Origin: Hexactinellida sp. DTS-2022 | Lineage: Eukaryota; Porifera; Hexactinellida | Direction of reading: 5' to 3' | Assembly (NCBI GenBank): GCA_028753945.1 | Contig: JAPNXP010000001.1 | Location: 7,058,501-7,122,500, forward strand | Length of the DNA: 64,000 nt | Shown here: positions 18,710 through 62,834 of the stretch, piece by piece | Layout of the letters: each line of letters opens with the position of its first letter | How positions within the stretch are numbered: position 1 is the stretch's first letter | Position numbers and translations under genes: made by a program | Notes under the pieces: generated by a model | What the model saw: only the letters and a program-made list of their open reading frames with translations | Databases searched by the model: none | Told to the model about the DNA's origin: nothing

Positions 18710-19773
18710 GTGGAGGGGGAAAGATTAAATTCATTAAATTATATATCTGATGGTTATCGCTATACTAAATATCGTGAGTTAAACGAAACGATTTATCTCC
18801 GTTGCACACTTTCAAAGAAATGTTCCTGTCATGGACTGGCCAAAATCTCTCCAATAATGAATCTGTTAGAAGTTACCAACTCTCATAATCACTCAAGAAC
18901 TGATAATCAATCAGATAGTATTGTCCTCGCAAATAGGATTAAACGCGCAGCAGAATCATCTACGGATAGTTTAAGAGAGATTTTCAATAATGAATGTCGG
19001 GACTCACTTGTAGGATGTACTTTGACTTTCAAACAATTTGAAAGTACAATGTGCAAAAGACGGAGATTAGATCTTCTCAAGCTTCCATCAACTCCTGTAG
19101 AATTCGCCGATCTGTTGCTAAACTCTTCTTTCTCAAGTAATCACAGATTAACGGTTAGAGAGGGTAATTAAATTGCACTAGTATATGCTACAGATCTTTT
19201 GATTTCAAAACTATTAGTAGTAGAAACGATTCACTTTGATGCAACCTTCAAAGTAGTCCCGCATCTTTTTTATCAGCTATTAACAATATTCATTCAGTAC
19301 AAAGGACATGCTATACCAGCATTACATATATTAATGACCAACAAAACCGAACAGCTGTATGTAGCTGTATTGTCAGCAATTCGGGGATGCATTCCTATTT
19401 TTAAGCCATTGTTTGCAATTTGTGACTTCGAAAGAGCATCGCGCAACGCATTTATCTCAAATTACCCTGAGATAACTTATCACTTATAGGATGTTGGTTT
19501 TATTATACCAAAGCTATTTATGACAGAGTGAAAAAGATAGGGCTTGGAAAACTTTATAAGACTAACAAGGTCTTCAAAAAATGGATACGTGAGTTGATGT
19601 CATTGCCATTTTTATTGGAAGAAGATATCAAACCTACTTTCCTAGCAATCCAGGTTCAGCTGATAGGATTACCAAACCTGGAGTTAGAACTTGTTAATAC
19701 ATTCAAAAGATACTTTTCCAAAACATGGATTGATGGAAACCAAAGCTTATCTGTATTTACACTGATGTTATGA
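18710..19773 (+). pseudogene. FLYWCH-type MULE transposase, broken
   Basis: Coding homology runs from 18710 (a GTG; the true start is unknown) to 19773. It begins with a FLYWCH-type zinc finger (SDGYRYTKYREL, C-x5-C around LRCTLSKKC, then NSHNH at about residues 60-64; the usual W before the first Cys is L). The MULE catalytic core follows, with FDATFKVVPHLFYQL (first Asp) and CDFERASRNAF (second Asp), then YYTKAIYDRVKKIG. Breaks: an in-frame TAA at 19169-19171, and a 1-nt frame change near 19484 from the second to the first frame. It would have encoded a nuclear DDE transposase. The gene is dead as it stands. Confidence 0.8.
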
Positions 19774-29100: not shown

Positions 29101-29253
29101 TGATAATCAAATGATATAAATGAGAGCTAGAAATCTAATTGAGTATAGGCTACAAAACTACCAATGACTGGAATCTACTCTACTAGTAATACTAAGGGAT
29201 ACTATATATTATGGGTGACTAATTACTATGTCTTGCTTTGTATACTCGTATCA
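29101..29253 (-). repeat. gypsy-1 3' LTR
   Basis: 153 bp, identical to 33773-33925. The gag-pol stop codon (29226-29228) lies inside it, so the last residues of the protein are LTR-encoded. A purine-rich tract (complement of 29254-29285, containing AAAAGGGGAAG) directly adjoins it and is the likely polypurine tract. Confidence 0.95.
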
Positions 29254-32200: not shown

Positions 32201-33752
32201 TTTCGACGACTTGTCTACTTACTTCCTCCTCCCATGAAGGAGGAATCCTCCTTGGGCGAGTTCGCCGTGGCGTGTTATTCATTAGTTCTAACGAATGTTC
32301 CGTACCTTCAACGACACGGGAGGGTCGTTTGGGGTTGACTGCAAACAAAGTTGGGAATTCTCCGGTTAAATCCTTTAATAGCTTAGATTCCTCAAGAGTT
32401 AATGCCGGATTCATGAGTTCCATGGTATCATTAACTGCCTGTATCTCGAATACCTCGTCTGTAACTGCCTTGGATCTTGCCATTGGATTTGACCCACTCA
32501 CAGAGGCTTGAACTGGTTCCCACTCTCCGTCTAGCTTAACTCGTCCCCCTTTAAAGTCGAACGCGACTTCATTAAAGATTCCCATAAACGACCGCCCCAG
32601 GATAAGGGTAGGGTTATCGTAGTCCAAAACTTTAAGTCTCTGCTTTACAGGTGCATGTTTACCCACTCGTATTTCAGCATCCAAGTATCCTAAGACTTTT
32701 ATTGGGCTATCACATAAACCAAAGACCTGGCCTGGATAATCGATAATGTATTGGTTCAAATTCAGCTCCTGTAACGTGTTGTAATCAACTACATTTGGTC
32801 TAGCCCCAGTATCCAGCATGGCTGAGACACGATGTCCTTCAATTTCAATGTGAATAGTAACCGCGTCTTCTCCCAGGCCGACAGTGAAAACTTGATCACT
32901 CCTCTCACGACTAGGCCGACCCTTGGCATTGAACTCGCGTTGGGGGTTGTTTCTGAAACATTCACTGGTTTTGTGATTACGCCGCCCACAAATTCTGCAT
33001 GCTCTATCTGGGCAGTTCCTAGATATATGACCCATCTTATGACAACTGAAACATTCAATGCCACGAGATGGCTGCGAGGAGCTCTTCCATTGATGGGGTC
33101 GTTGAGGTTTCTTCCGGAGGGAAAGTATTGTATCAGACTCACTAGGAGAATCAATTTCATCTGAATTTTGAGACTCGTGACTTTCTTTTGATTCCTTTAC
33201 CTGTATAACTCTTTCTACGCCCCGATCACGATACCCTTGTGTGAGTGATATATTCTTAGTAAGAAACAGTTCTCTAATCTTAACAGCGAAAAGAGTCCCA
33301 TCGAGTTCTGTGAACTCCCCACCTTTGGCCTGTATCCATTCTTTAGCGGACTGTCGTACCTCACCTGGTAGTTGGGAAGTCATAAATATACATACTTGCT
33401 TCGAGTTCAGGCCTCCTTTGATACCCAGCTCTAGGTACTTGGCTAGGAAATCATGTACTGGTTCGTTCACGGGCCACGACAGTTGTCGAAACGCGCTTGC
33501 TGCTTCGAAAATATCTACCTTTGGGTCGAGTCGGTCTTTCAACAAGCGAAAGGCTTCATCAAGTGTCTCCTCCCCAATAGCCGTCAGAACCACACGCTCT
33601 TCTAGTTTTCCCCTCTTGACATAGGCTGGGAGTAATCGAACAGCAGCTTTCTCCTCAATTGAAATCACGCTGGCCCTAAACTTGGGCTCCCAATCGGCGA
33701 TGAGTTGTCCGTCCAATAGCGGGGGAATAGAAACCGTGATCGGTGTTGCCAT
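29226..33752 (-). CDS. gypsy-1 Gag-Pol polyprotein
   Basis: One frame of 1508 aa from the ATG at 33752 (sequence MATPITVS). An upstream in-frame ATG at 33782 lies in the LTR and is less likely. Order: Gag with two zinc knuckles near residues 230-262 (CFSCHKMGHISRNC, then CRICGRRNHKTSEC); aspartic protease near 311 (MLDTGARPNVV); reverse transcriptase about 545-720 with YVDD at 645-648; RNase H from about 790 (VETDASAGG); integrase with HHCC zinc site about 1010-1050 and catalytic D/D/E near 1074, 1136 and 1172; and a GPF-like C-terminal module (YDGPFEV). Integrase after RNase H places it in Ty3/gypsy. Gag and Pol share one frame, so Gag excess must be set by another route. Near residue 1395 a 20-aa segment is duplicated in tandem. 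Confidence 0.95.
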   Translation of the reverse strand: MATPITVSIPPLLDGQLIADWEPKFRASVISIEEKAAVRLLPAYVKRGKLEERVVLTAIGEETLDEAFRLLKDRLDPKVDIFEAASAFRQLSWPVNEPVHDFLAKYLELGIKGGLNSKQVCIFMTSQLPGEVRQSAKEWIQAKGGEFTELDGTLFAVKIRELFLTKNISLTQGYRDRGVERVIQVKESKESHESQNSDEIDSPSESDTILSLRKKPQRPHQWKSSSQPSRGIECFSCHKMGHISRNCPDRACRICGRRNHKTSECFRNNPQREFNAKGRPSRERSDQVFTVGLGEDAVTIHIEIEGHRVSAMLDTGARPNVVDYNTLQELNLNQYIIDYPGQVFGLCDSPIKVLGYLDAEIRVGKHAPVKQRLKVLDYDNPTLILGRSFMGIFNEVAFDFKGGRVKLDGEWEPVQASVSGSNPMARSKAVTDEVFEIQAVNDTMELMNPALTLEESKLLKDLTGEFPTLFAVNPKRPSRVVEGTEHSLELMNNTPRRTRPRRIPPSWEEEVSRQVVEMCRNGICRPSKSAWSSDVVLVRKKDGQMRFAIDYRQLNAVTKKDAYGPPNPQTILDKLEGSRYFSCLDIASAYWCIPMEESDIPKTAFHTPRGLYEMLVMPFGMMNAGATFQRLMDQTLQGIKGAESYVDDILVFSRTFDEHLKNLRQVFRRLTVAGIQLRRDKCHLAYSECEFLGHRLTAQGRMPTQSYLEKLQLFPQPRKLQELQRFLGTLNYYRSYIPRMAEIAAPLYKLTKKGALWLWGSDCERAFEMLRGKLVKEPVALAFPEWKRPFYVETDASAGGVAAVLSQRDDRTGKLRPILYFSSSLSFSQKNYSAGQLEAWGIVSAARKWSVYLRAAPEVIFLTDHCPLQWLKSQKDPRHTYARWIVELEELPYRIEYRPGIQNNPADYLSRLPNLHFDMEVNNEDCFEGKIYSLKDPEVIGLDIVRKQGDDQVIQRAMQQIKTLGMVKDGQLRKVAQRLRVDRGALCFNNRLVVPKEIQANILERVHNETHFGLVGTMDALRRNFFWAKMARDAKQFCRACIVCQRAKPSNKGKQPVEPVLLGKSYPGSAVGVDIGTLPWADGEYRYFLLMVDLFTRQIELMPLHDQTYQSVVKAFEQGWVYRGHGIPDIVLTDQGSQLDGEDFRGFCKPLGIEKRHTTPYHPQCDGMAERNIGFVKQVTLCLMLDRQLPKGSWPALLSEVAFHCNCMPNASSKVSPFLLTYGRQPRSPIDAWCRGMESNERNSHGEYLDALQRKQAELNALATENIKRNLDRSRQRQNERRVSSGITKGDYVMLRNDARHDSLDPRYDGPFEVTDRKGPDVKLDIRREVRDRTGRQHTRFRNKWVHLDRCKEYFSSPVEIVPSHSGEGVMTDFSSPVEIVPSHSGEGVMTDEFELERRSAEYDADCHTEFGEKTDLVVSEPVNSDIASDRDLGQEVENRTEVENTVKERRYPSRVRRPNQRYQEFIPWYNISKGLGKNSSVQLNDYTTMRKEGSKRGSDDTSIQSKT

Positions 33753-33754
33753 TG

Positions 33755-33762
33755 TGATACCA
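33755..33762 (-). promoter_or_regulatory. gypsy-1 candidate primer-binding site
   Basis: On the minus strand TGGTATCA begins 10 nt inside the 5' LTR and just before the ATG. TGG is the expected start for pairing with a tRNA 3' CCA end. The match is short and the tRNA is not identified. Confidence 0.35.
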
Positions 33763-33772
33763 ATTAGATTTA

Positions 33773-33925
33773 TGATAATCAAATGATATAAATGAGAGCT
33801 AGAAATCTAATTGAGTATAGGCTACAAAACTACCAATGACTGGAATCTACTCTACTAGTAATACTAAGGGATACTATATATTATGGGTGACTAATTACTA
33901 TGTCTTGCTTTGTATACTCGTATCA
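33773..33925 (-). repeat. gypsy-1 5' LTR
   Basis: 153 bp, identical to the 3' LTR. Promoter elements are not obvious; short LTRs of this size are normal in some Ty3/gypsy groups. Confidence 0.95.
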
Positions 33926-35153: not shown

Positions 35154-38100
35154 ATGTCTTGTGTTGTCCCAGGCTGCAAGTCTAATTATAAAAGCCAAGA
35201 TGAGTCTATCTCCGCTTTTCATTTCCCAAGAGACCCGAAGTTACTTGAAGAATGGTTCAGGGCAATTCCACGGCCACGGAAGGACTTTGAAACCAACAAG
35301 CAGATGAGGGTAAGTATCTATAATTTCCATTTATTGATTGCCATATTTACATTAGTTTCTTTAGGTATGCATTCGTCATTTCAAAGAAGATGACATCGAA
35401 AGGACCATATCCTACAATGACGGGGTTCATACTGTTACAATTTCCAGAGAGAGAATAGCTCTGAAGAAGACAGCAGTACCCAGCATTTTTCCCAACTGTC
35501 CTTCCTATCTTTCTGAATTCAATTCCAAACCAAAGAGACTATGCCTAGATGATAAAGAACGACTGCTGATGGAATCTGCATACTCCAAGAGCATAACTGA
35601 CAACGAAGAAACGGTGGATAAGTTCCTAGTTAATTCATATTCTGATCTTCTTTCTAAGCTAAATTTAATCGACCTACCAAACGGCTGGATAACTAATGTG
35701 TCTAATAACACCCCTTTATTTTTTGTAAAAATCGTTATTTTAGAAACCGGACCTTTCATCGACCGATCTGTATTAATTAACGATGATTTGTACATCAAAG
35801 CATTTGACAATAAAAACGTCCCAATTCCGATCTCGCGAATTTTTATTAATGACACTCGCCAAGTTGAGACCATCCTCGATGAAGTAGATACATTTTCATT
35901 CATACTTGAAACTATTAACTCTCAAACTGAATGTTCTATTAACAACCATATAAAACTTGCTATCCATGAACTCGAAAGTGCAATTAAGCTTGTTGATGGT
36001 GACTCGATAGACCTAGACATAGATGATTTACATTGCAGTAGCGAATCTCTGAGTATTTCATTCCACTTTTTAGTTGGACAACTGAGAAATTTGATAAATG
36101 CTAAAAGTCGTCGACGGTATAATATTTTAACTCAAGTATTTTCACTAAAAATTCATGGAATATCACCTGCATGTTACCGACTTATTCAATCATCCAATTG
36201 CTTAATCTTGCCTCACGAGAGAAATTTGATTGGTATAAAAACACTCTGGGTATTGAAGGTGATTACTTTCAAATTCTAAAGGAAATAACTTCCAAGTTTA
36301 GCCATAGGGAACGCCATGTGATACTTCAAATGGACGAAGTTCACATCCGTAGTGATGCTTCATATAAAGGAGGTAAAGTTTTGGGCGCCATCGACAACCC
36401 TAGCGACCCCCCCACAACTGTGTTTTCAATGATGATTTCCAGTCTTATGAAAAAGTTTTCCACCATTGTTCGTCTGATTCCGTTAGGGTCTTCCTCCGCG
36501 GCTGATTTATATCCAATTATTACAAAAACAATTTGTGATATAGAGAGTTGTGATCTATTTGTTGAGGCAATATGTACCGATAATTATCCTTTAAATGTCA
36601 GTGTATTTAAATTATTTTAATATGACGCGAAAATATTGCAACCGCGAGTTGTACATCCATGTAACCCAACCCGCAACCTTATTTTATTCTTTGACATAGT
36701 CCACATTATGAAATCAATTCGTAATAACTGGTTAAATTTAAAAGACTTTGAGAAAACTTTTATTTATCCTGATTTTGAGACTTGCACCGATGATATTCCA
36801 CTACCAGTAATCATACCATCTACTCAGCTTAAAGTTTCTATACCGGTTGCTAACATTATTTTGGATCCGAGGGAATTGACTAAGTCAAAATACCCTCCAA
36901 TATGCTTTGCAGCATTTGACGACCTCAGAACCTTATTTAAAGCTGACAAATTTTCCATAATTAAGAGAGCCCCCAAACTAACATCAAAAGCATGTTGGCC
37001 ATCTCATTTAGAGCGACAAAATGTAAACTTAGCTCTTAAGATCTTTCATGAATCAACAGCAGCGGGGCTCTCTAGTTTCTATAATGAGAATACAACAAAT
37101 GAAAATCGCCATATCGTCAAATTCATACATTTGAAAAATAAAATCTGGAACATTTTCAATGTTAATTGGGTCGGAAAAGATATTCGCTTCAACAATCCAA
37201 ATTTTGCTCCGCTTCGCGTGAACGATCCGAGATTAGCCTTTTTAGACCATGTAGTTAAATGGCTGGATTGTTGGAAATTACTTCCCACGTCTAGAGGGAA
37301 GCTTACACCACAAACATTCACTAGTTTTAGACATACTTGTATTGCCCTCCCTCTCTTAGTACAGAGATTGACCCTTGAATGCGGTTTTGAATATTTGCTG
37401 ACTTCTCGAATACAAAATGACCCATTAGAACATCATTTCGGGCTATATCGTCAAATGTCTGGTTCAAACTATAATATATCTTACTGTCAAATTTTGGAGA
37501 GTGAACGTCGACTTCAATTATCTAATCTCCTCAATTTTTTTAACATAAATCAACAGTCTGATAAAATATCTCTTAAATAATATTTGAAAAAATTTACACA
37601 GGAGGACGATGAAGAAATGCACCCAGAGTTTGATTTTGAGTATGTTACAAGTGAAATACTTAACATTCCTAACCCTCTATTTGATAATTCGCAAATTGAA
37701 TGCCTAAATTACGTTGCTGGGTATGCAATCTTTTCGTACCTTAAAAATTCTAAAGAATGTCGAGACTGCAAAGATTTTTTAACATCTCCCAAAGATATTC
37801 AAGTTATTAACGACACCGGATTTTCAATGATTGAATTCCTTGATAGAGGCTCACTTAAGTATCCATCTGAAATTGTCTACCAATCTCTCATCATAATGTA
37901 TGAAATATTTTTGAAAATCGATAACCATTCACATTTAAGTAAACTATTTTACGAGGGATCCTGCCGTCGGAATTTGGTTCAGTTGTCACTTATTATTGTA
38001 GAAGAAAAGTATAGTGAAATATGGAGGCAATGGTGTGTTTGTATGATTCCAAAATGGGAAATTCTTAAAAAAAATTATACTACTGTAGCTAATTGTATTT

Positions 38101-38177
38101 TATCGAAGAAGGTTAGAAACTTTAATTCGATAGTTATTGGTCGAGATAATAGCAAACTTAAAAAATTCAGTACATAA
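35154..38177 (+). pseudogene. THAP-domain P-element-type transposase, spliced and broken
   Basis: Exon 1 (35154-35309, 52 aa) and the start of exon 2 together give a full THAP zinc finger: C3, C8, then C54 and H57 (VCIRHF), with FHFPRD between. The intron of 55 bp (35310-35364) has GTAAGT and TTTAG borders, and joining keeps the frame. Exon 2 reads in the first frame to 36279, then homology moves to the third frame near 36235 at a run of A. MDEVHIRSDASYKGGKVLGAI near 36330 and FFDIVHIMKSIRNNW near 36690 are hallmark P/THAP9 transposase segments. Further breaks are in-frame TAA codons at 36618-36620 and 37578-37580; homology-like sequence continues to 38177. The THAP domain would bind the terminal repeats. 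Three lesions make it inactive. Confidence 0.85.
35310..35364 (+). other. Intron in THAP exon
   Basis: 55-bp intron bounded by G/GTAAGT and TTTAG/GTATGC. It interrupts the THAP domain between R52 and V53. Recognition rests on the perfect restoration of the VC-x2-HF motif. Confidence 0.8.
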
Positions 38178-49562: not shown

Positions 49563-49610
49563 AAACTAATATATTGACTTTATATTTTCATTCTCAACTA
49601 GCAATTACCA

Positions 49611-50700
49611 ACGAGTGTTATCTTAGCGGCGGATTCATCGGCGGATTCGCAGACCTCACGTTTATGCTAATAACTCAAAAAGTTTACGCTGTACGTGAAA
49701 AATTTTCACATCAGCGGGAAGATGAAAGTTGTGACAACCCATATATAATCCCAAAATGTCAAAATTCCTTAAGATGACTCAGCAATTTTCGATCAAATTT
49801 AGACCTCGGTTTTTCCATAATAACTCAAAAATTATCCATCAAATCAAATTTTCCTTTTAATCACATGTCTATCTCACCTATGACAACCTGTCATGCAAAT
49901 TTCAAAACAAAATATTCATTTTTGAAAAAATATTATTAACATAAATTTCATTAAATTAATTTCACGATCTTATCGGCGGATTCGCAGACCTCACGTTCAT
50001 GCTAATAACTCAAAAAGTTTACGCTGTACGTGAATTTTTTTTACATCAGCGGAAAGATGAAAGTTGTGACAACCCATATATAATCCCAAAATGTCAAAAT
50101 TCCTTAAGATGACTCAGCAATTTTCGCTCAAATTTAGACCTCGGTTTTTCCATAATAACTCAAAAATTATCCATCAAATCAAATTTTCCTTTTAATCACA
50201 TGTCTATCTCACCTATGACAACCTGTCATGCAAATTTCAAAACAAAATATTCATTTTTGAAAAAAAATTTTGAACATAAATTTCATTAAATTAATTTCAC
50301 GATCTTATCGGCGGATTCGCAGACCTCACGTTCATGCTAATAACTCAAAAAGTTTACGCTGTACGTGAATTTTTTTTACATCAGCGGAAAGATGAAAGTT
50401 GTGACAACCCATATATAATCCCAAAATGTCAAAATTCCTTAAGATGACTCAGCAATTTTCGCTCAAATTTAGACCTCGGGTTTTCCATAATAACTCAAAA
50501 ATTATTCATCAAATCAAATTTTCCTTTTAATCACATGTCTATCTCACCTATGACAACCTGTAATGCAAATTTCAAAACAAAATATTCATTTTTGAAAAAA
50601 TATTATTAACATAAAATTTCACTAAAATCGGCTTACAATGATGATTTCCAATATCCATAATGTTGATATGTTGTCATTTAATAATACTATTGATAAGAAT
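49611..50700. repeat. Left terminal inverted repeat with three 335-bp subrepeats
   Basis: Subrepeats begin with TCGGCGGATTCGCAGACC at 49638, 49973 and 50308, an exact 335-bp period. Each contains ACGTTCATGCTAATAACTC, GATGACTCAGCAATTTTC and CCTATGACAACCTGTCATG. Copies differ by few substitutions. Confidence 0.9.
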
Positions 50701-51393
50701 GTATTTGATTTGCGTCAGTGTTCACAGGAATTAAAGTTTTAGGTACCTCTGAAGAATAATTAATGACCGCATTCCTAATTATATCAGGCTTAGTGATTAC
50801 TTTCTGTAAACAAGCTTACATAATACAAACAACTTCATATATACAAATATATTTGGAATGCAATATTCATTAAGAGAATAGAATCAGACATATAAACAAT
50901 ATTATGGTTACTACAACAATGTTAGGTATTTTAAGCATCTCCAGGTTTTTCCATTTCCATAATCTGCGTAACTTCTATCTGAATGATCTTACTTGTGGCC
51001 ATGTTCCTTCTCTCCAAATATACGTACTATTTGCCTTTAAAGAGGGTGAATCTCATATAAATGTAAAGCAACATATTATCTCAGAATATGACTTACCAAC
51101 GAGTGCATGTTATTAAAATGGTGACAAATATTAGTAATGCTTTATATAGAAAGATCGAGATAACCAAAGTTATTCTAAAAAAGTAAGAGAACTACTTAGT
51201 AGAACATGGAAATAAAGAGAGAACTAGTTTATTGGTTTAGGATTTAACACATTAATGATAATATGCATTAATTCTTTTCACTGATACGATATTAAAAGGG
51301 CGCCATTAAATATAACAGGAAAGTACATCTACAAATTGTGGTAAAACTATTGCAACTCTTCTAAAACTCTGCCTTGTTCAATTTAAAAAATAA
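50701..51393. other. Non-coding interior of the OTU-MULE
   Basis: AT-rich, single-copy in this window. The open frame 50904-51116 shows no recognisable features. This is the region downstream of the OTU gene, so it would hold its 3' untranslated sequence. Confidence 0.5.
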
Positions 51394-51525
51394 TTAACTA
51401 TTATTTTCGAATTTAACAGAAATAATAGGTTCATAATGATTCCCAATATTTCGTATATATATCCCATTTGGGGTTGGCGCCTTCATTAACTCTTCAAAAG
51501 TTGATCCATTCCCTGAAAATCCAAT
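51394..51525 (-). pseudogene. In-frame continuation of the OTU domain past a TAG
   Basis: After the TAG at 51526-51528 the same frame stays open for 43 codons to a TAA at 51394-51396. It includes IYIRNIGNHYEPI, the expected OTU strand with the catalytic His. The TAG therefore either truncates the protease domain or is read through. Confidence 0.7.
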
Positions 51526-54500
51526 CTAACGTGTTCCCAACGGACCCAAGAATACCCAGATATCTATATTAAATAACAAAGCAGTTGCAAAGAGTTCAAG
51601 ATCAGTAGCCCATTTCCCACTCTTCCTCATTCCTGTTTTGTTGACCCAGTCTTGTACATTTCGATAATTACCCTGCGTATAAACATATTTTGTGCGTAAA
51701 TATTTATTGCAACTCATACTTAGGTCACCTAGCATATTATCAATTATTAGCTCCCTAAACTCTGCATGGAAATCTTGACTACCAGTGATGAGATAAGAAA
51801 TTGTCGAGAAATAGCAATTTCCATCGCCAATTATATATTGAGTCAAGTTTGGCGAATAACTAAATAAACTTTCTTCATTATCTACAATATCATTATAGGA
51901 GTACGGTAACTCCTCGCGAAAGTGAAACTTCCACTTTTTACATGTAGAAATCTGCCAGTCTGTATGTGGCGGACGAAAGCTTGGTAGTACATATCGTATT
52001 AGCCCCGTCTCAACTATTTCCTCATCTGTAATTATAGAGGCCACTCGCATTACCTTTGATGCAGTTTGCGTACGTAAACTAGATAACTTTTCGCATTTTC
52101 GTGGGACAAATTTACGCTTAATTTTACATATTTTATTTTTCTTCTCAACTTTTTTCTTCTTAAATGTTTGAAATTCATATGATTTAGGTTGTAAATAACC
52201 GCAATACACTTTCTTTTTTCGTGACCATTCTTCAACACTTTCCTCTTCCAAACTATTTCTTACTCTTTTATGACCTTTAAATACCTTATTCGCTCGCGGG
52301 TGAAAGGCAAATTGAAACGCTGATAACCTACTTACTATACCAGGATACAACAATTGTATCAAATCTCCAGGCCTCAAATTAGTTTTGGATTCCAAAATAT
52401 TTAACTTCACAATACGCATCCAATTCTCCACAATAGCGTTGCTAAAGATGCTAGTCTTGTTCTTATCCGCTACACTAATAGGTCCTAAGATTATTCCACT
52501 CCATAAAGGTAATATAGGTAGGTAGAATGTTAACAAGTATTCTATAAGCTCCGGATTATAACAAGGATTTGGATCTGCATTTTTTCCTGGATTATTGTTG
52601 ATCCAAGATTTGCAATTTTTTGCAATATTTACAAAATGTTTGCCGAAAGGGGATTTTTCTCTGTATGTTTTACTATCCTTGTTATCAATAGCAATATTAT
52701 TATCGTCCATATGTTCTTCAACCAAATATTCATTAGTCTCTGAGGAGTTTACGGAATCATTACTAATGAATGTTTCTAGCAAATGAGTATGTGTCTTTAC
52801 TATTGCACTTAAAGAACTACTCATAAATACAATGCATAAAGATTGGAATAAATTATTGATACTTGTCATTTCAACAGCGCGTACAATAAATCCGATACTA
52901 TGTAAAAACAGTTTTCTCACTTCTTTTTGTAGTTTAAATTTTTTATTTATATGAAATCCTATGCTGTGCATTAAATGAGCCGAACATAAGTGAAGAATTA
53001 CTTTAAAGTCCGTCTCATTAACTGCAGAATTTACATCTACCATATTCCAACACTTATGGAGATAAGTATCTATATCACACTTGAGAAAAATACTACAAGA
53101 ACTGTGAATCAAAACCCAGCTGAAATCTATTTCAACTTGTGAAATGTTTAGATCGCCCAGTATTTTCTTTGCATCAAGGGACCATTTGTGCAAAAAATAA
53201 CTTATTTCAGCACTGGTGTGTCCTGAACTAATCATTTCTGCTAGTGGAATTGGACTAGTGGAGTAAGTAGGATGTCTTACAGTTAGAGCGTAATAGAATA
53301 CTTTCTTTAGTGAGGGTTCTATTTTCCTAACAATTGATCCTGTGGCATCCAAGTGAAGAACAATTCTTGTATCTTTAAACAATTTCAATATTTTGATTTG
53401 ATCTTCAGTGTACATATGTACAATAAAAGGATTATGACTTAGTGACTGTATGTAACCTCTAACATGAAGGCCAATAACACTATTTCTATAATACTGTTGT
53501 AAGCTAATTAACTCAGTCCAGTTATCATTAGAATACCTCTGTAAACTAGACAAATCAAATTTAGCTTTTCGCAGGACTGCAGAACTTCTAACCTTATTTA
53601 GGTTACCATAATTAAGCGCTAAGTTTGTGTTCTCTACAGAATCAAATTGATCATAGAAATAAGCATTTACAGATGTATCTGCTACCCCTCTAGCTACTTC
53701 TAACCTATGCGAATGTGATAAATTTCGTGAGTGCACAGTTGTATTATCGAAATGCTGTTCAGATAAGGTTCCATAAGCTACATACTCCACAATAATATTT
53801 TCATCAATTTTACACTCCAACGGCTCTTTCTTTATTACAAATGTAAATTCAAAACAATCTTTAAACTTACACACTGCTTTAGCTCTAAAAAAACAGCTAT
53901 TTTGTTTTCTACTACTAAGTTTATTAACCTTTTTGTATTGAAAAGAAAGAACACATACAAAATTTCCCTCGATTTTTGAACTAAATAAATTGGTCCAATC
54001 TTTAGAAAATACTACAGAGTCTCCATGAATTAGTGTAATACTTTTCCATTCCATTCCACTTAGCAAAAATTCACCACAGATTTCCTCACTAAACATGGAT
54101 TGTTCAACTATGACTTCATTACCCAGAGTACTGTCGTCATCTTCTGATGGCACTAGCAATTTGGACTCAGGGATATTAGAGGTAATAACAATTTCAGGTT
54201 GCGGGTCATCGGTAGATGACAATACCGGGACTTGTTGATTTGAAGAAGAAGAAGAGGTATGATGCAATTTTAGGCACAGAGATTCATGAAATGAGCTTAA
54301 AGTATCTGAACTTTCTCGACAGGCTAGAATAAAGCTAGTGAATAAATCTAGTTGTTGCACTGTGATAGCTATATATGAATTCCCGAATAGCTCTAATATC
54401 CTACAACTAATGTTTTCAACTAAAATCCACGCTTCCACTAAGTTACAATTTCGCCTGATTAGTCGAATCCATTGCATTGACTCCATTAGACAGCAACTAA

Positions 54501-55131
54501 ACTTTTTCGACTGGTCGTGGAGTTTGTCATCCACTAGCATGAACTCACCACTAACAAGCGGACACTCTAAGCTGAAAAATTTCATTGCATCTAACCATAG
54601 ACTATTATTACAGTTTATGAATGACCAAAAATGGCTATCAGTCCTCCCTGTTTGGGGAGGAGGAGAAGCTATCTTAGACATGAGACCGTAAAGCTGGCAG
54701 TCATCGCAACCAGATGCCAATAAACCTAGCAAACTGTTATTCGTTACGTCTCGCTGTAAACTAGGAAAACTGAAATCGATTTCATCCAAACTCCTCTTAC
54801 TGAGTTCTATAGTGTCAGGATATGAGCTAGCAGATACTAACTGAGTACTGATATGCTCTACTGCCAATCGGGATACATCATTGGTGATAGACTTACGCGT
54901 ACTGATCATTTGCTTTACGAGATGCTGAAAGTTTCCTCTATTCAATCTCCATTTGGAGCTGAGAGAATCGCGCTTAGTAGCCTTGTTTTTTCCAAAAAGA
55001 ATAATTGATAATTTTCCCCAGACAGATTTTGGCTTATGTTTGTCTCCTTTGTTCAAAGCATCTCTTACGCTATCGAAGCTTTCATAGCCGAGTTTCTGGA
55101 GAGCTTCCACGAATTGCTCTATTGAAGTCAT
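51526..55131 (-). CDS. MULE/NOF-type transposase-like protein with C-terminal OTU domain
   Basis: 1201 aa, single frame, ATG at 55131. The N-terminal half (1-480) has no motif I recognise; 290-350 is Ser/acidic-rich. A DDE-like core follows: HLDATGSIVRKI (D595), PLAEMISSGHT near 625, EIDFSWVLIH (D669) and LCSAHLMHSIG near 705, the pattern of MULE/NOF transposases. About 965-1040 is strongly basic (KKKKVEKKNKICKIKRKF), a likely nuclear or DNA-binding stretch. At the end IIGDGNCYFSTISYLITG (D1103, C1106) is the start of an OTU cysteine protease, followed by WATDLELFATALLFNIDIWVF. The ORF stops before the OTU His, which lies just past the TAG. OTU proteases remove ubiquitin-type tags. Other MULEs carry OTU or ULP1 domains, but their role in transposition is not established. 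Confidence 0.8.
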   Translation of the reverse strand: MTSIEQFVEALQKLGYESFDSVRDALNKGDKHKPKSVWGKLSIILFGKNKATKRDSLSSKWRLNRGNFQHLVKQMISTRKSITNDVSRLAVEHISTQLVSASSYPDTIELSKRSLDEIDFSFPSLQRDVTNNSLLGLLASGCDDCQLYGLMSKIASPPPQTGRTDSHFWSFINCNNSLWLDAMKFFSLECPLVSGEFMLVDDKLHDQSKKFSCCLMESMQWIRLIRRNCNLVEAWILVENISCRILELFGNSYIAITVQQLDLFTSFILACRESSDTLSSFHESLCLKLHHTSSSSSNQQVPVLSSTDDPQPEIVITSNIPESKLLVPSEDDDSTLGNEVIVEQSMFSEEICGEFLLSGMEWKSITLIHGDSVVFSKDWTNLFSSKIEGNFVCVLSFQYKKVNKLSSRKQNSCFFRAKAVCKFKDCFEFTFVIKKEPLECKIDENIIVEYVAYGTLSEQHFDNTTVHSRNLSHSHRLEVARGVADTSVNAYFYDQFDSVENTNLALNYGNLNKVRSSAVLRKAKFDLSSLQRYSNDNWTELISLQQYYRNSVIGLHVRGYIQSLSHNPFIVHMYTEDQIKILKLFKDTRIVLHLDATGSIVRKIEPSLKKVFYYALTVRHPTYSTSPIPLAEMISSGHTSAEISYFLHKWSLDAKKILGDLNISQVEIDFSWVLIHSSCSIFLKCDIDTYLHKCWNMVDVNSAVNETDFKVILHLCSAHLMHSIGFHINKKFKLQKEVRKLFLHSIGFIVRAVEMTSINNLFQSLCIVFMSSSLSAIVKTHTHLLETFISNDSVNSSETNEYLVEEHMDDNNIAIDNKDSKTYREKSPFGKHFVNIAKNCKSWINNNPGKNADPNPCYNPELIEYLLTFYLPILPLWSGIILGPISVADKNKTSIFSNAIVENWMRIVKLNILESKTNLRPGDLIQLLYPGIVSRLSAFQFAFHPRANKVFKGHKRVRNSLEEESVEEWSRKKKVYCGYLQPKSYEFQTFKKKKVEKKNKICKIKRKFVPRKCEKLSSLRTQTASKVMRVASIITDEEIVETGLIRYVLPSFRPPHTDWQISTCKKWKFHFREELPYSYNDIVDNEESLFSYSPNLTQYIIGDGNCYFSTISYLITGSQDFHAEFRELIIDNMLGDLSMSCNKYLRTKYVYTQGNYRNVQDWVNKTGMRKSGKWATDLELFATALLFNIDIWVFLGPLGTR

Positions 55132-55734
55132 TACTAGATGAAATAATAATAATAATTTTAATTAATCAATACATATATATATACTACTACAGTAGAACCT
55201 CGTTAGTACGAACACGGTTAATTAATACGAATTTCCGGATAAGAAGAACAGTTCCACAAAATCAGGTCCTTACAATGGCGATTGAATGGGTATTACTCCG
55301 GTTAATACGAACTCCGGATAAAGCGAACAAATTTTTATTGTCCGTTGGTATCGACTGCATATAGTAATTATATTAGTATTCGAGGCCGGCGGTATTTCCT
55401 TCCGCCGGACTTGGGCATCCAAAGCTTGAAGGCCACGTTATTGTAAATTAAATTTTAGATCTGATCATTCAAAATGTAGTGGTAAAAATATCGGTCTGGC
55501 CATGGCCTGCCCTGGTATTAAAATAAATAACAAAGTAGCTAAAAGGCAAATAAAATAAAAAAACTCACTTGAATTGGAAGAATCGACTTGGAGGAATAAA
55601 GAAGAGAGCAGAAAATAAATGAGAAGAAAATGGAGATGAGAAATATGCTGTAAAGTCAAAAAGATCTTTGAAAAAAAAGTGAAAAGTGTGTTTGAAAAAA
55701 ATGAAATAAATTCGAAGAAAATCAAGTACACGTA
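55132..55734. other. Upstream region of the OTU-MULE gene
   Basis: Holds a fragment starting CAGTAGAACCTCGTTAGTACG (55195-55345), like the end of a pogo/Tigger-type MITE with no right partner, then the MITE at 55381-55514. The rest is AG-rich (55520-55730) without a gene. No promoter motif is supported. Confidence 0.5.
55381..55514. mobile_element. MITE, CGAGGCCGGCGG end, 5-bp TSD
   Basis: 134 bp flanked by GTATT on both sides (55376-55380, 55515-55519). Ends CGAGGCCGGCGG / CCATGGCCTGCCCTG. Same family as 13348-13486. Confidence 0.65.
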
Positions 55735-55927
55735 TATAGTATGTAACAGTATTTAATCAATGAGTTAATTAATCGAGCGCGTACAAAGAAAGTAAATTAA
55801 TAGAAACGAGATTGTAGGCTATCTACTATACTAATACTATATATAGACATTGTTAGATAGTTAAAGGACTTTTTGATTTCAGATTAAACTTGTATTATTA
55901 TACTGTTTTATTTACGGAAGTACTATA
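55735..55927 (+). repeat. gypsy-2 5' LTR
   Basis: 193 bp, identical to 60603-60795, with inverted tips TATAGTA ... TACTATA rather than plain TG...CA. Confidence 0.95.
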
Positions 55928-55928
55928 T

Positions 55929-55944
55929 TGGTAGCAGAGAGTGG
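55929..55944 (+). promoter_or_regulatory. gypsy-2 primer-binding site, initiator tRNA-Met type
   Basis: TGGTAGCAGAGAGTGG lies one base after the 5' LTR. It resembles the TGGTAGCAGAGG-type complement of the initiator methionine tRNA 3' end, a known primer for several LTR retrotransposons. Confidence 0.7.
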
Positions 55945-55948
55945 TTGA

Positions 55949-56884
55949 ATGGCAGCTTCAAACGTACCAGTGGAAAAGTTTGATGATGGAGACATTGAAA
56001 ATTTTCTGGAGCATTTTAAAATATGCTCACTTGCGAATGAGTGGAATGCGGGCAAGCAGTCATTGATGATAGCTACTTGTTTGAGGGGCGAAGCCTTAGA
56101 AGTGTTTAAAACTCTGGATATGGAGAGCAGATTGAATTTTGATACAGTTAGAGACAAATTATTGAGCGCTTTCAAGCCAGAGGATACGAAATTTACTTCA
56201 TTGAGTAAATTCCAAAGTAGATCTCTTCACCCAAGTGAAACACCGCAGAAGTATTTATACGAACTTAAGGGTCTTTTGAGGAAGGCATTTCCGGAAATGT
56301 CTATGGAAGCAAAGGAACAGCTGTTATTCGAACAGTATATCCGTGGGTTACCCAGACAGATTTATGAGAACATTAGGCTTTCCCCGGATATCACTACTTC
56401 GGAAGGAGCAATGAAGCGAGCACAAATACTAATTCGTTTACAAAATGAATCTTCTGGAAAAGTCGAAGGAGAAATCAATTCAGTAAAGGCACCCGAGGAA
56501 ATTCACGTGAAAGGGAATTTGATGGATGATAAAGTTGACAGGAAGCTGGTGAATGAGGCAGTTAAACAAATAACTGAGCGGTTTAGTATACTAGCATGTA
56601 ATGAGAGCGAAAATAGCATATGTGCTGTTGATGGACGCCGTAACCAATGGAGAAATGAACTAAAAGGGAAGGTGGTTGGATACGAACGCTCTGGTCCAAG
56701 AGGCTATGAAAGGGAGAAGAGAGAAAGGGCGATTAGATGTTATATGTGTCGAGGAGAAGGACACATAGCAAGGGAGTGCGCCAATAATAGAACAGAGCAA
56801 CAGATCAGATGTTATAATTGTAAGCGAATAGGGCATATGGCGAGAAATTGCCCGAAGCCTCCAACGGGGAATCCTTTAAACTAG
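55949..56884 (+). CDS. gypsy-2 Gag
   Basis: 311 aa from the first ATG after the primer-binding site. The retrotransposon Gag capsid-like core lies at about 10-180 (FLEHFKICSLANEW, KFQSRSLHPSETPQKYLYEL). Two CCHC zinc knuckles are at about 262-301 (CYMCRGEGHIAREC and CYNCKRIGHMARNC), which bind the RNA genome. It terminates at TAG 56882-56884 immediately after the slippery heptamer. The stop and the pol overlap (56848-56884) show that Pol is made by a -1 frameshift. Confidence 0.95.
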   Translation: MAASNVPVEKFDDGDIENFLEHFKICSLANEWNAGKQSLMIATCLRGEALEVFKTLDMESRLNFDTVRDKLLSAFKPEDTKFTSLSKFQSRSLHPSETPQKYLYELKGLLRKAFPEMSMEAKEQLLFEQYIRGLPRQIYENIRLSPDITTSEGAMKRAQILIRLQNESSGKVEGEINSVKAPEEIHVKGNLMDDKVDRKLVNEAVKQITERFSILACNESENSICAVDGRRNQWRNELKGKVVGYERSGPRGYEREKRERAIRCYMCRGEGHIARECANNRTEQQIRCYNCKRIGHMARNCPKPPTGNPLN

Positions 56885-56919
56885 ATGGGGTTCGTTGGGC
56901 GAGTCGAGACGGAACCCCA
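56875..56919 (+). promoter_or_regulatory. -1 ribosomal frameshift signal
   Basis: Heptamer TTTAAAC at 56875-56881 is in register with the gag codons (T TTA AAC), right before the TAG. Four bases later TGGGGTTC (56886-56893) can pair perfectly with GAACCCCA (56912-56919), an 8-bp stem with an 18-nt loop. Slippery heptamer plus a downstream stem is the standard layout of -1 frameshifting. Confidence 0.85.
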
Positions 56920-57519
56920 GAAATTCAACAGACTCAATGTTATGCAAATTATTCGAATATAGTTGTCGATTCAGCGGTATCATCAATACCATTCCATGAA
57001 GATCATATTGCTTTATGCAAGTCAGTAGAAACTCCAAAGATATACTTGAAAGTGGGAGGAGTCAAGTGTAGTGCATTACTTGACAGTGGAGCCAGTGCTA
57101 GCCTAATCTCCAACCATATCTTCAATAAATGTTCTAACAATCTTTCAAGTAAGGTGAATTCCAGGGAGTTAATCACAGCAACGGGAAATCAGATGAATCT
57201 ATTAGGTGAAGCTCGTTTAGAGATATCTATTGGTAACATTAATTGCCTGCAAGAATTCCTCGTAACTTCGCCATTGGTAGAAGATTGCATTTTGGGAGTG
57301 GATTTTTTGGTGAAACATCGAGTTGATTTAGATTTTGACTGTGGAGTCGTTAGGGGACCACAGTTAGGAATGGTCATGATGTGCGAGAAGAGGGATAGAA
57401 AATGTTCTACAGCTCAAAATGTAGAGTATACTCCTTACAAGTCTTGTTCCGTGCACATTGGATTGTGTGATTCACCAGACTCGTTTGACTTGGACGAGAA
57501 TGATGATTGGGAGTGCCGA

Positions 57520-57575
57520 GGAACTGATAAGAACAGATCTCGATACGAATATCGAGATCTGTTCTTATCAGTTCC
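57520..57575. repeat. Perfect 26-bp inverted repeat in pol
   Basis: Arms 57520-57545 and 57550-57575 are exact reverse complements around the 4-nt spacer CGAA (GGAACTGATAAGAACAG start). It lies in the protease to RT linker and stays in frame. Confidence 0.95.
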
Positions 57576-60500
57576 TGGCGTTGCAAAGGTAGAGGAATAT
57601 CAGATCAGAACTGGTGATGCTGGGGCAATAAGAACGCCTCCTAGAATGGTTCCACAGGCGTACCAGCAAGAAGTCCATTTGCAGATCGAAGAAATGCTTC
57701 GAAGGAACATCATCAGAGTCTCGAGCAGTTCATGGATTTCTCCTCCAGTAATGGTTAACAAGAAGGATGGTACCATACGCTTCTGTATCGACTATCGGGC
57801 TCTTAATAGGGTTACACAAAAGGATGCTTATCCTCTTCCACTTCCAGATCAAGTTCAGGACAAATTATTTGGTATGAAGTATTTCACGAAACTGGATCTT
57901 AACTCCGGTTATTGGCAAATACCAGTACGTGAATGTGATAAAGAAAAAACCGCTTTTCTCCTGGTCCGGGAATGGGGCTTTTCGAGTTCAACGTGTTGCC
58001 CTTTGGATTAACAGGCGGACCAAGCGCGTTCCAACGTACAATGGATAAGGTGTTGCGTGGGTTGGAGAAATTCAAAGATAACTTCATCGATGATATTCTT
58101 GTTTATTCGCCGGATAAGGAATCACACAAAAGAGCATTAAGGATGATATTCGATAGGCTTAGACAGTCTAATCTGAGGTTAAGGGGTAAAAAGTGCGAGA
58201 TTGGAAGAAGTAAAGTGACCTATTTAGGACACACGTTTTCCGCCACGGGAATGGAGCCTGAGGTTTCCAAAATAGATTCAATAGTCAATTGGTCTCGACC
58301 AGGTTCGCAAAAAGAAGTGAAACAGTTCTTGGGTTTAGCGAGTTATTATAGGAGATATATTCAAGACTTTTCCACCATTGCTAATCCTCTGAATCATTTA
58401 CTATGCAAGAATGTCCCCTTTGTGTGGGAAAAGAGAGAAGAAACAGCTTTTATTAAGCTTAAGGAATCGCTTTCGTCCTCGCCGGTGCTGCAATGTCCAG
58501 ATTTTAACAAAAAGTTTCAGTTGTACACAGATGCCAGTGGGACAGGCTTGGGTGCAGTTCTCGAACAAGAAGGTCATGTAATTGCATACTTCAGTAGAAC
58601 TTTACGAATTGCTGAACGCAATTACAGCACGATAGAACAAGAATGCCTTGCTATTATTGAATCTCTAAAACGTTTCAGACATTACTTGATTGGGAGAAAA
58701 TTCGAGATATTCACGGACCACAAACCATTGGAGTGGTTGCAGACCCAAAAAGCTGTGGGTAGATTATGGCGATGGGCAGTGCTGATCCAGGAGTATGATT
58801 TCGACATAAAGTATAGGAATGGTAAAGAAAATCACAATGCAGATGCGTTATCTCGGTTGAATTGTGATAATGGAGTAGAAAGTTGTGCTATGACGAGCTC
58901 CCTTCTGGAATTGGATTTTAAGCAGATTAGAAAACATCAAGTGAACGACAGGATAATCAGTAAAGTCATCGCGGAAATGGAAGTCGTTCCCAGAGATAAA
59001 CAGTTCTTGGGACAATTGTGGAATATGTCAGAGTTTAAAAGGTTTAAACAAATTCAATCTCAGCTGTTTCTAGTAAATGGAGTTTTAGTACGGAACTTTA
59101 AGGTACAGCCATTTTCGAATCTTCATAGTGTTGTGGTTATTCCTGAGCAGATGAAAGCAGAATTCCTGGAACGTGCCCACGATAAAGGTGGACACCAAGG
59201 TGTAGAAAAGACATTGGATAGATTGAAAATGATGGCATATTGGGTTGGAATGCAACTGGCAGTAACAGAATATGTTAATTCTTGCGATAGGTGTCAGAAA
59301 GCGAAGCTTCCCCTTCCAACGAGGGCGCCTCTGTTGAACACTCCACTAGGAAGACCGTTGCAAATGTTACAAGTCGATGTTTTAGAAGTTCCTATCAGTT
59401 CGGAAGGAAATAGGTACTTACTGGTTATAGAAGACTCATTTTCAAAGTGGTTAGAGGCATATCCGATGAAAGATCAGAAAGCTGAAACTATTACAAAATT
59501 GTTAACTGAAACATTCTCGAGATTAGGTATTCCAGAATTCCTGCATTCTGATCAGGGCACCAATTTTGAATCAACTTTGTTGAAAGAAACATGCAGAGGG
59601 TGGGGAATATCTAAAACACATACTTCAGCTTATCATCCTCAGGGAAACTCCCTGGTGGAGAGAAGCAATAGAACCCTTTTACAAATGCTCAGGTGTTATG
59701 TTGACGAAACTTGGGAGTGGGAAAGATATCTCCCCTTAGTGCTGTATGCTTATCGTACTACAACACATACGAGTACAAAGGTTACTCCATTCCAACTTAT
59801 GTATGGACGCGATTCTTGCATAACAAGTGATTTAGAAGTGGGCACGTCTCATGATCCAACTTCCTATGAAATTTTTTTACGTGAAAAATTAGCCAAGTTA
59901 AGAGATTTTGTTGAGGGTCATGCCGCAAGAGAGCAATGCCGACAAAAGGAATATTACGACAGAGGAGCGCATTTTTCAATTCTATCGAAATTCCATATGG
60001 GCGATAGTGTTCTGCTATCCATCCCACAGAGAGGAGTAGACCGGAAATTACGGGATAGGTGGGAAGGGGGATGGACGATTAGCAAGGTTGAAGGACCTGT
60101 CGACCTCCAAATACGACATTTAGATGGGAGGACTAAAGTAACTCATATAAACAGATTACAACATCATGTTCAGCGAAACGATCAAGAGCGATTTAGTTCA
60201 TCAGCTGAATTTGAAGACCACTATCCGGTTAATAATAATATTATTGATAATAATAATAATTCGGAAGAATCTCAACGTAAGAGACAGGAGAGCAACTTAA
60301 GTCCGCAATTCAGAAAAGAAAATACGAGGAGACTATCCTTACTCTCCGAAACTCCTCACAACAGATCTTTAAAGGAGTTGTTGTCGAGCAGCATTAGTAT
60401 GGATTCACCACTAGAAGACAACGTAGATCTGAACGATACATCTATACAGGGCGGGGAACATATTAGTTTGGAGGACGCCGCTCTTAGCCCTCAAAATTAT

Positions 60501-60591
60501 AGCAGACCACAACGTGTACGGAAACCTCCAAAGTATTTGGAAGATTACGTATATGACTGATCGAGAGAAACTCGAGGTCGAGTTTTACGAT

Positions 60592-60602
60592 GAGGGGAGG
60601 AA
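60592..60602 (+). promoter_or_regulatory. gypsy-2 polypurine tract
   Basis: GAGGGGAGGAA directly before the 3' LTR, the expected site and composition for plus-strand priming. Confidence 0.75.
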
Positions 60603-60795
60603 TATAGTATGTAACAGTATTTAATCAATGAGTTAATTAATCGAGCGCGTACAAAGAAAGTAAATTAATAGAAACGAGATTGTAGGCTATCTACTATACT
60701 AATACTATATATAGACATTGTTAGATAGTTAAAGGACTTTTTGATTTCAGATTAAACTTGTATTATTATACTGTTTTATTTACGGAAGTACTATA
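60603..60795 (+). repeat. gypsy-2 3' LTR
   Basis: 193 bp, identical to the 5' LTR. Confidence 0.95.
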
Positions 60796-60864
60796 CGTAG
60801 AAGAAAGGCAGTGTACCATTTATAGTGAGAAATCATTGAATTATAAACAAAGGATATAATAAAT

Positions 60865-61287
60865 TCTGATCAATAGTTATTAGACAACATATTCTACATT
60901 GTGGATATTGGATAGGTATTCAAATCATCATTGTAAGCCGATTTTAGAAAAATTTATGTTAATAATATTTTTTCAAAAATGAATATTTTGTTTTGAAATT
61001 TGCATGACAGGTTGTCATAGGTGAGATAGACATGTGATTAAAAGGAAAATTTGATTTGATGGATAATTTTTGAGTTATTATGGAAAAACCGAGGTCTAAA
61101 TTTGAGCGAAAATTGCTGAGTCATCTTAAGGAATTTTGACATTTTGGGATTATATATGGGTTGTCACAACTTTCATCTTCCCGCTGATGTGAAAATTTTT
61201 CACGTACAGCGTAAACTTTTTGAGTTATTAGCATAAACGTGAGGTCTGCGAATCCGCCGATGAATCCGCCGCTAAGATAACACTCGT
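60865..61287. repeat. Right terminal inverted repeat of the OTU-MULE (single subrepeat)
   Basis: Reverse complement of the left end, with one 335-bp subrepeat instead of three (CCGAGGTCTAAATTTGAGCG, GGAATTTTGACATTTTGGG). The inner edge near 60865 pairs with about 50700. The open frame 61121-61333 mirrors 49526-49777 and is not a gene. Confidence 0.9.
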
Positions 61288-61296
61288 CAATTACCA

Positions 61297-61930: not shown

Positions 61931-62834
61931 TGACAACTCGCGCTCTTATGTTTGGATAAAGAACTGTAATATCTTTGAGATGCTGTGATACCAACTTCTG
62001 AAAGTAGCACCAGGATGAGGAGTTTATCTTAGTGCCGGCCATACATCGGTTGAGGAGCCAAGGTGCTTGCAGTTTTATTCGATTTAGGTGCCGGGTTGGC
62101 ACTTTTTGGGTGCCGAGTTGGCACTTAAATTAGGTGCCATGTTGGCATTTAAATATGATCAATATCTCTAATTACTTGGTAAAGAATACACGATTATAAT
62201 AATAATTTAGAAATGAAAATTTCACATGACACGTCAACGTCTTGGACTCTCTTTCCATTTGTAATATACTTTGTCAATTAACGAACGAACCTTTTTCGAA
62301 TATTCGTTCGTTTGGATGCTAAGCATTAGATCAATTTCATGAGACAAATAAATTGGAAAATAGGTTTTTGATGATGCTACAATGGTATAATAAGGCCACT
62401 GTTAAAATGTTAATGACAATATTGTTTCAGCTCCACACGAAGTCTATCTGAGGATGCGGGCGGGCGGGCGGCATCTCATTATCATTATCTCATTATTTGA
62501 TGACGACATAGTTAATAATTATCTGAGCAAATATTCTAATTTGCGAGTGCTATTGATAAAATATGCAATCGTTGGATAATAATGCTTGTTAAGTTGTTAT
62601 AGATTCTGATTTTGTTACTAGCTAATTATGGCTATTTTAGGTGTGTCCTACCATAAAATTGGCAACGAAATGTAGGTATAATAATGGAAATAATGACAAT
62701 ATTCGTGCGGGACGCGGGCGGTGGAGCTGAAACAAGATTCCAACAAATAGTGGCCTAATAGTTACAAAGTGTATACAAGTTAACTAATAATCAACTAGTT
62801 TAGGTAGGAATGTATATTTTCGATATCTCTAAGC
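61931..62834. repeat. Low-copy repeats, no gene
   Basis: 62060-62150 holds three GGTGCC(G)GGTTGGCACTT units related to 49525-49550. A candidate MITE spans about 62391-62761 (AGGCCACTGTT ... ATAGTGGCCT), with inner TTTCAGCTCCAC / GTGGAGCTGAAA. GCGGGCGGGCGG lies at 62457 and GCGGGACGCGGGCGG near 62706. A block of CGAACGAATATTCG-type sequence lies near 62285. Confidence 0.45.

Follow-up and report, generated by a model that had tools for sequence, protein, structure and literature searches.

A probable MULE-like DNA transposon of a hexactinellid sponge with transposase and OTU protease in one protein

Introduction

FB-NOF elements carry tandem-repeat inverted ends around a large protein gene and produce a 9-bp target duplication; we know of no OTU domain in NOF. 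The title of one reference terms FB-NOF non-autonomous. Rehavkus elements are described with terminal inverted repeats (TIRs) of 26–400 bp, a single ORF and a minisatellite before the 3′ TIR (PMC6446971), and Rehavkus-1_TC is given as a 9.5-kb element whose inverted termini contain tandem repeats of 164 bp (PMC10218199). Among animal MULEs, the Phantom elements and Tm1 are described with a 9-bp duplication and the ends of Tm1 as foldback-like; Tm1-A has 496 residues with FLYWCH and PF10551 domains, and the word protease is absent from the text of that paper (PMC3169594).

Proteases of the ubiquitin family recur in unrelated transposons, with OTU in Ginger1 and Helentrons and Ulp1 in MULEs. We know of no test of a protease role in transposition. 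In the description of Ginger1, a DDE transposase and a C-terminal OTU (or Ulp1) protease share one protein, and its authors propose an active role of the protease in transposition; the same paper notes that Mutator elements can carry Ulp1 (PMC2836005). Helentrons and animal Helitrons are likewise described as encoding a mobile-element protein with an OTU-like protease (PMC6431247).

Here, we describe an element within a stretch of 64,000 nucleotides from Hexactinellida sp. DTS-2022 (contig JAPNXP010000001.1, positions 7,058,501 to 7,122,500; hereafter the window), which a sequence-only reading had taken for a complete foldback MULE. We consider it very probable that this element is one copy of a recently multiplied, MULE-like DNA transposon of the TIR type, whose transposase and OTU protease reside in one protein.

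Results

The element starts at position 49611 with ACGAGTGTTATC, and the inverse copy of this sequence ends at 61287, just where the sequence-only reading had placed the termini. Sequence comparison of the flanks also bears out the perfect 9-bp target-site duplication claimed there: CAATTACCA lies directly outside both ends, at 49602..49610 on the left and 61288..61296 on the right. An exact 9-bp duplication was found in 14 of 18 other copies with the same paired ends (15 of 19 including the window copy), so its presence at these ends is not a matter of chance. Many near-identical copies of this family occur in the genome; all genome counts of copies, OTU places and core loci given here are lower bounds, as a limited number of candidates was scored.

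The terminal inverted repeats are 345 bp long and 99% identical, as expected for the long TIRs of MULEs. The left arm (49611..50626, plus strand), which lies 3′ of the gene, contains three tandem units of ~335 bp that are 97% identical (49637–50626), followed by an inner stretch (50627..50705, plus strand) with 78% identity to its right-arm counterpart. The right arm (60943..61287, minus strand) consists of one unit, which shares 99% identity with the outermost of the left units, and adjoins an inner stretch of ~85 bp common to the left arm (60858..60942, minus strand). Long inverted ends of tandem 335-bp units had been proposed for both sides: the left array stands, but the right arm of the window copy holds a single unit and no array. 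The reading as a foldback element whose arms are equal was rejected. Across the 19 copies, the 3′ side of the gene carries three units in 3, two units in 12 and one unit in 4 cases, and just one unit is found on the opposite arm in 18 (counts by eye, which are lower bounds).

A Ty3/gypsy LTR retrotransposon of 5061 bp is nested inside the element (55735..60795, plus strand). Both of its LTRs are 193 bp long and identical, its duplication is 4 bp (CGTA), and it encodes gag (55949–56884), protease/RT (56848–58011) and RT/RNase H/integrase (57972–60560), all on the plus strand, with a frame change inside RT. Its insertion site is empty in seven of the nine other copies examined and unreadable in two (L003 and L011). 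Without this insertion, the DNA transposon of the window measures about 6.6 kb.

The transposase-OTU gene of the window is an open frame of 1201 codons on the minus strand (51526..55131), which ends at an in-frame TAG. The 1201-residue protein noted earlier corresponds to this frame, but its end is premature: beyond the TAG at codon 1202, the frame runs on for 43 codons to the next stop (51394..51525, minus strand), and this part, including an H-Y-E-P motif, is conserved in alignment A2. The TAG truncates the OTU domain upstream of the catalytic His, which in the window copy lies beyond the stop codon. Copies without this TAG exist, and an unbroken frame of 1244–1245 codons with the whole OTU domain is present in eight of nine near-identical full-length copies. 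Some families have a frame break upstream of residue ~353, at which splicing may occur. Because its OTU domain is cut short and the gypsy element separates the 5′ arm from the start codon, the window copy is probably non-autonomous; with a nested retrotransposon and a truncated protease, it cannot be called complete.

The DDE core comprises about residues 551–977 (52201..53481, minus strand). Its predicted structure, a model of moderate confidence, shows the RNase-H order known from DDE transposases, and D595, D669 and E902 occupy their expected positions. Both the DDE-like blocks first noted around the two aspartates and the RNase-H fold looked for at this position are therefore borne out, the latter at the confidence of the model. 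The DDE reading rests on this fold order, the conserved residues and the VIA-align rows. Within the core, the model also contains a C-x2-H motif (C716-x2-H719) and a predicted all-helical insertion. A putative zinc-binding β-sheet region precedes the core (about residues 351–497, with C393, C421, C426 and H460; 53641..54081, minus strand). A Foldseek search with the core alone gave no match at E ≤ 0.001, the missing MULE entries among the structure matches are uninformative, and the best structural match of the core model was the transposase ISCth4.

ISCth4 is described as a copy-out/paste-in enzyme. This match and the many near-identical copies, which fit a replicative process, would agree with movement by copy-out/paste-in via a circular intermediate, as in bacterial IS256, instead of cut-and-paste. 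To our knowledge, however, the eukaryotic MULEs studied to date all cut and paste, and we regard a copy-out mechanism as distinctly unlikely.

Target duplications of MULEs range from 8 to 11 bp and are usually 9 bp, and this length is found both in the window family and in a second family with 35% identity, in which seven of ten copies show an exact 9-bp duplication and the TIRs are about 711 bp long. Duplication, long TIRs and the moderately confident RNase-H-fold DDE core are features shared with MULEs, but the Pfam MULE domain PF10551, with at least 150 matches in the same genome, was found in none of 11 members of the lineage at E ≤ 0.01; nor did FLYWCH, the other domain of Tm1-A, match any of them. 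Comparison by hhalign with three classical MULEs from this genome gave a probability of 0.2, which is a weak test with small profiles of two and three sequences. A placement in the P or hAT superfamily, off the MULE/IS256 side, is unlikely in our view. Most probably, the lineage consists of MULE-like DNA transposons (of Rehavkus/NOF type, as judged by descriptions of these elements) that carry an OTU deubiquitinase of their own.

A FadR_C match of the protein remained below its cut-off and was dropped. Searches for relatives by sequence pattern returned 1 and 41 stretches in two scans of viral contigs and 13 in prokaryote genomes, none of which was confirmed. PHROGs and NCBIfam searches gave nothing useful, and nothing was found with Rfam within the window.

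The OTU domain as left in the window copy (residues 1091–1201; 51529..51861, minus strand) was identified by its Pfam match and its fold. The Pfam OTU score is 24.2 bits in an intact copy and 23.5 bits in the window copy, at a cut-off of 23.3. The predicted structure has the OTU fold and matches deubiquitinating OTUs across the domain, and a search of BFVD structures returned OTU-type matches, next to long high-rmsd rows that were left out of the interpretation. D1103 and C1106, previously read as the OTU start, are present in the window protein; the catalytic C1106 is kept in all 11 members and the catalytic His (H1232) in all nine that reach it. In its degree of conservation, this domain roughly equals the best-conserved part of the catalytic core, and it is under purifying selection (dN/dS 0.12). 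Its C-terminal place behind a basic, poorly conserved linker would also suit a self-processing protease that frees the transposase from a polyprotein. Since the model aligns with deubiquitinating OTUs along the domain, and no conserved cleavage-like site was seen in the linker alignment, we judge self-processing very unlikely and favor a deubiquitinase.

Outside the window's own family, 55 core loci were considered (27 at 45% identity or less plus 28 further ones, excluding second pieces of one locus), and at least 40 of them are followed by an OTU domain downstream. The pairing used 89 of 150 OTU places, leaving out mainly repeated frames of 226/227 residues, and this exclusion can only lower the count. 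No OTU was seen at 15 loci: an internal deletion is present at one (C1:7157851, L086), no OTU was scored at another that closely resembles the L073 family (C14:387682), and the remaining 13 are mostly partial. Distances between cores and between OTU domains agree (Mantel r 0.93). Because of this agreement and the recurrent downstream position, core and OTU represent, as judged by sequence comparison, one old fusion and no recent capture.

OTU-coding places are very frequent in the genome (at least 150 Pfam matches scored, from 440 candidates), which would make capture easy, and gene capture is a described trait of MULEs (PMC6446971). Yet the alternative of a single capture, in which a deubiquitinase gene of the host would ride along without taking part in transposition, is largely refuted by the OTU following the core in distant relatives, by its distances tracking those of the core and by the purifying selection acting on it; we give it hardly any credence. 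Since the fusion recurs in many related families of the genome, the OTU protease probably belongs to the normal life of the element. The original proposal, which placed DDE transposase and OTU protease within a single protein, is thus supported by the OTU sequence and fold, the modelled RNase-H order including E902, and the OTU domains of distant relatives.

Discussion

We propose that a single protein would do all the work of the element. Its middle part is modelled as an RNase-H-fold DDE transposase, with a putative region for zinc and DNA binding in front of it. This part would bind the inverted ends of ~345 bp and cut at ACGAGTG / CACTCGT, and joining to the target with a 9-base stagger would yield the 9-bp duplication. 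The C-terminal OTU cysteine protease would most likely remove ubiquitin, and its substrate could be the transposase or, at the ends, proteins of repair or chromatin. More tentatively, we suggest a whole lineage of MULE/IS256-clan transposons whose transposase depends on an OTU deubiquitinase as a fixed component. This lineage, absent from the papers searched, would have radiated into some ten families or more within a single small genome, and its OTU may shield the transposition complex against removal driven by ubiquitin or guide the repair of the donor site. Whether losing the OTU cysteine stops transposition is now a testable question, because the family is young and of high identity, has unbroken copies and defined ends, and its OTU domain is strongly conserved. 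Moreover, the tandem-repeat ends of Rehavkus/foldback-like elements, puzzling so far, are tied to a definite enzyme.

Searches of open-access literature brought up OTU domains in Ginger1 and Helitrons/Helentrons, and among the papers listed none dealt with an OTU in MULE, Rehavkus or NOF elements; Repbase may list the family. Helentrons and Helitrons have neither TIRs nor a 9-bp duplication. They also differ from the window lineage by their rolling-circle Rep/helicase enzymes (PMC6431247). The core of Ginger1 is a Gypsy-type integrase, which the window protein lacks: rve and Integrase_H2C2 have no match in this protein at E ≤ 1 or in the 11 members at E ≤ 0.01, while integrase Pfam families do match the nested gypsy, and a Ginger1-type integrase is thereby ruled out. 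Like the Ulp1-carrying MULEs of plants and animals (e.g. KI-MULE), the window lineage combines a MULE or MULE-like element with a cysteine protease of the ubiquitin family, which is the SUMO protease Ulp1 in the former and an OTU in the latter.

FB-NOF and the window element are alike in their tandem-repeat inverted ends, large protein gene and 9-bp duplication, but in the window family the arrays are unequal and long tandem arrays do not occupy both ends. Rehavkus is described with a PHD finger, and the word OTU is absent from the main text of its description (PMC6446971); in the 11 members of the window lineage, neither a Pfam PHD match nor a C4HC3 pattern was found. Rehavkus, an outgroup or member of the MULEs, shares the 9-bp duplication, the single ORF and TIRs in the range of 26–400 bp with the window element (PMC6446971), and the tandem array, located 3′ of the gene, resembles, by description, the minisatellite adjoining the 3′ TIR of Rehavkus.

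Structure of the window copy

The ends, the 9-bp target duplication and the long minus-strand frame described in the sequence-only reading were all found in the window sequence, the element spanning 49611-61287 and its transposase-OTU gene 51526-55131. That reading also described inverted ends of tandem units, which applies to the left arm with its three units of 335 bp; the right arm contains a single unit, leaving the two arms unequal. The element is not complete as had been claimed: a Ty3/gypsy LTR retrotransposon is inserted at 55735-60795, and a TAG at codon 1202 interrupts the OTU domain (the C-terminal cysteine protease domain), beyond which the frame continues for 43 codons including an H-Y-E-P motif. 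Because the OTU domain is truncated and 5 kb of gypsy sequence separate the 5′ arm from the start codon, the window copy itself is likely now a passenger.

The nested retrotransposon is a separate element; its two LTRs, each 193 bp long, are identical, and it is accompanied by a CGTA duplication. It encodes gag with zinc knuckles, aspartic protease, reverse transcriptase, RNase H and integrase, and its pol is divided between two overlapping frames within the reverse transcriptase domain. Its insertion site is empty in seven of nine other host-element copies examined and unreadable in the remaining two (L003, L011). This family has also moved recently, since paired, 100% identical LTRs about 5.1 kb apart occur at two further places in the genome G000 (C7:2884964-2890076 and C1:8613618-8618730).

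Between the transposase-OTU gene and the right arm lies CAGTAGAACCTCGTTAGTACGAAC (55190-55240), which resembles pogo/Tigger-type ends. A similar peptide-level trace is found at the edge of locus L081, so this sequence may represent a small dispersed element. Other copies carry a ∼99-bp tandem duplication that spans the start codon and the sequence immediately before it (L002, about 5097-5296, versus window 55125-55225), which is absent from the window copy.

Other copies of the family

A protein search of the genome (112 Mb, 18 contigs) gave 51 matches, of which nine are full-length copies with about 100% identity. In eight of these nine the frame is unbroken over 1244-1245 codons from the ATG, the window copy being the exception, and eight equally long copies, the window copy among them, vary at only 23 of 3738 positions. 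With a query made of the left arm's first 370 bases, we obtained at least 59 matches; pairing these by eye gave the window copy and 18 other elements. The target duplication is exactly 9 bp in 14 of the 18 (15/19 with the window); the others show 8 bp in one case, 4 bp with changed terminal bases in another, and none in two. Among the matches listed, which make these counts lower bounds, the arm on the 3′ side of the gene has three units in 3 copies, two in 12 and one in 4, and the opposite arm has one unit in 18 of 19.

Age and conservation of the core-OTU fusion

A query with only the core (the DDE part of the transposase) detected at least 27 loci in families 37-45% identical, and a query with one of these families at least 28 more. 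In at least 32 of these 55 loci a scored OTU lies downstream in the same orientation and no more than 3 kb away, mostly after a gap of 430-470 bp, against a chance expectation of about 0.001 per locus. With six OTUs from a second search (matched by eye) and two read directly, the OTU accompanies the core in at least 40 of 55 loci. Core and OTU distances among ten proteins agree (r 0.93; none of 20000 permutations gave so high a value). OTU-coding sequence is also kept in all six of the broken, diverged copies that were compared by tblastn (L017, L020, L021, L026, L069, L070), in L021 only partly. The check for the OTU part in other copies thus came out positive, and an OTU captured once, the outcome set against the fusion in the sequence-only reading, fares poorly: a single recent capture does not explain its presence in at least 40 of 55 loci or the r of 0.93. 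A single fusion retained over a long time explains both.

Selection was assessed between the window family and L011, a copy with intact frame and 81% identity. The overall dN/dS is 0.237; core residues 585-720 have 0.099 and the OTU domain 0.118, with values of 0.15-0.37 in the other parts measured. Such constraint is not visible among the youngest copies, since the near-identical L011 and L012 give 0.81 on only 17 changes.

Several related families, including L075 and L077, change frame ahead of the core at a similar position, just before residue ∼353. An intron or a frameshift may account for this; in the window family the frame continues there without a change.

Other features of the window and genome

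The OTU search of G000 also showed numerous OTU-coding open frames, 226 or 227 residues long, whose scores recur (for example C1:6523387-6523761 and C9:356620-356892). They apparently form another multicopy OTU family, one that lacks a long transposase frame. The window also contains P-element-like transposase fragments (35569-38177, plus strand; Pfam TNP-like RNase H N-terminal and GTP-binding insertion domains), a second Ty3/gypsy element whose gag-pol frame is unbroken over 1518 codons (29226-33782), and a FLYWCH zinc-finger fragment (18710-19171) that probably derives from a Phantom-type MULE; classical MULE domains are abundant in the genome (at least 150). A gene-like frame with TRAF-type zinc fingers lies at 12027-13292; together with a CD225-like gene match that falls below its cut-off, it suggests an animal host. 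A short 22-24 bp tandem repeat with the near-palindromic core GTGCCGAGTTGGCAC occupies 62083-62154.

Proposed mechanism and comparison with known systems

The element has defined ends, 9-bp duplications and a conserved OTU, and its core has conserved DDE-type residues in RNase-H order. We propose that a putative zinc-binding region and the N-terminus would bind the 345-bp ends, where extra units at one end may supply additional sites for binding, an idea put forward for Galileo and Tetris (PMC4079207). The DDE core would perform cutting and joining, and the OTU would most likely take ubiquitin off near the transposition complex.

OTU domains are already known from DNA transposons (Ginger1, Helentrons), as is Ulp1 from MULEs. 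For Ginger1, OTU/Ulp1 domains have been suggested to take part in transposition (PMC2836005). The open-access papers listed in our literature searches included none on an OTU fused to a MULE-like transposase.

The window family shares 9-bp duplications and long TIRs with MULEs. A second family, 35% identical, has 9-bp duplications in 7 of 10 copies and, in the one copy examined, TIRs of about 711 bp without tandem units. The Pfam MULE domain was unmatched in 11 of 11 members, and when profiles were compared with those of three classical MULEs from this genome, a weak test, no similarity appeared. The closest description found in the literature is that of Rehavkus, reported there as described in Repbase only, which makes 9-bp duplications, has a minisatellite preceding its 3′ TIR and carries a PHD finger (PMC6446971); in Tribolium, its inverted termini carry tandem 164-bp repeats (PMC10218199). 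The array position in the window family fits this description; the family lacks a PHD finger and has an OTU instead. Since TIRs, duplications and array fit while the Pfam MULE match and PHD finger are missing, we describe the window element only as working like a MULE/Rehavkus transposon.
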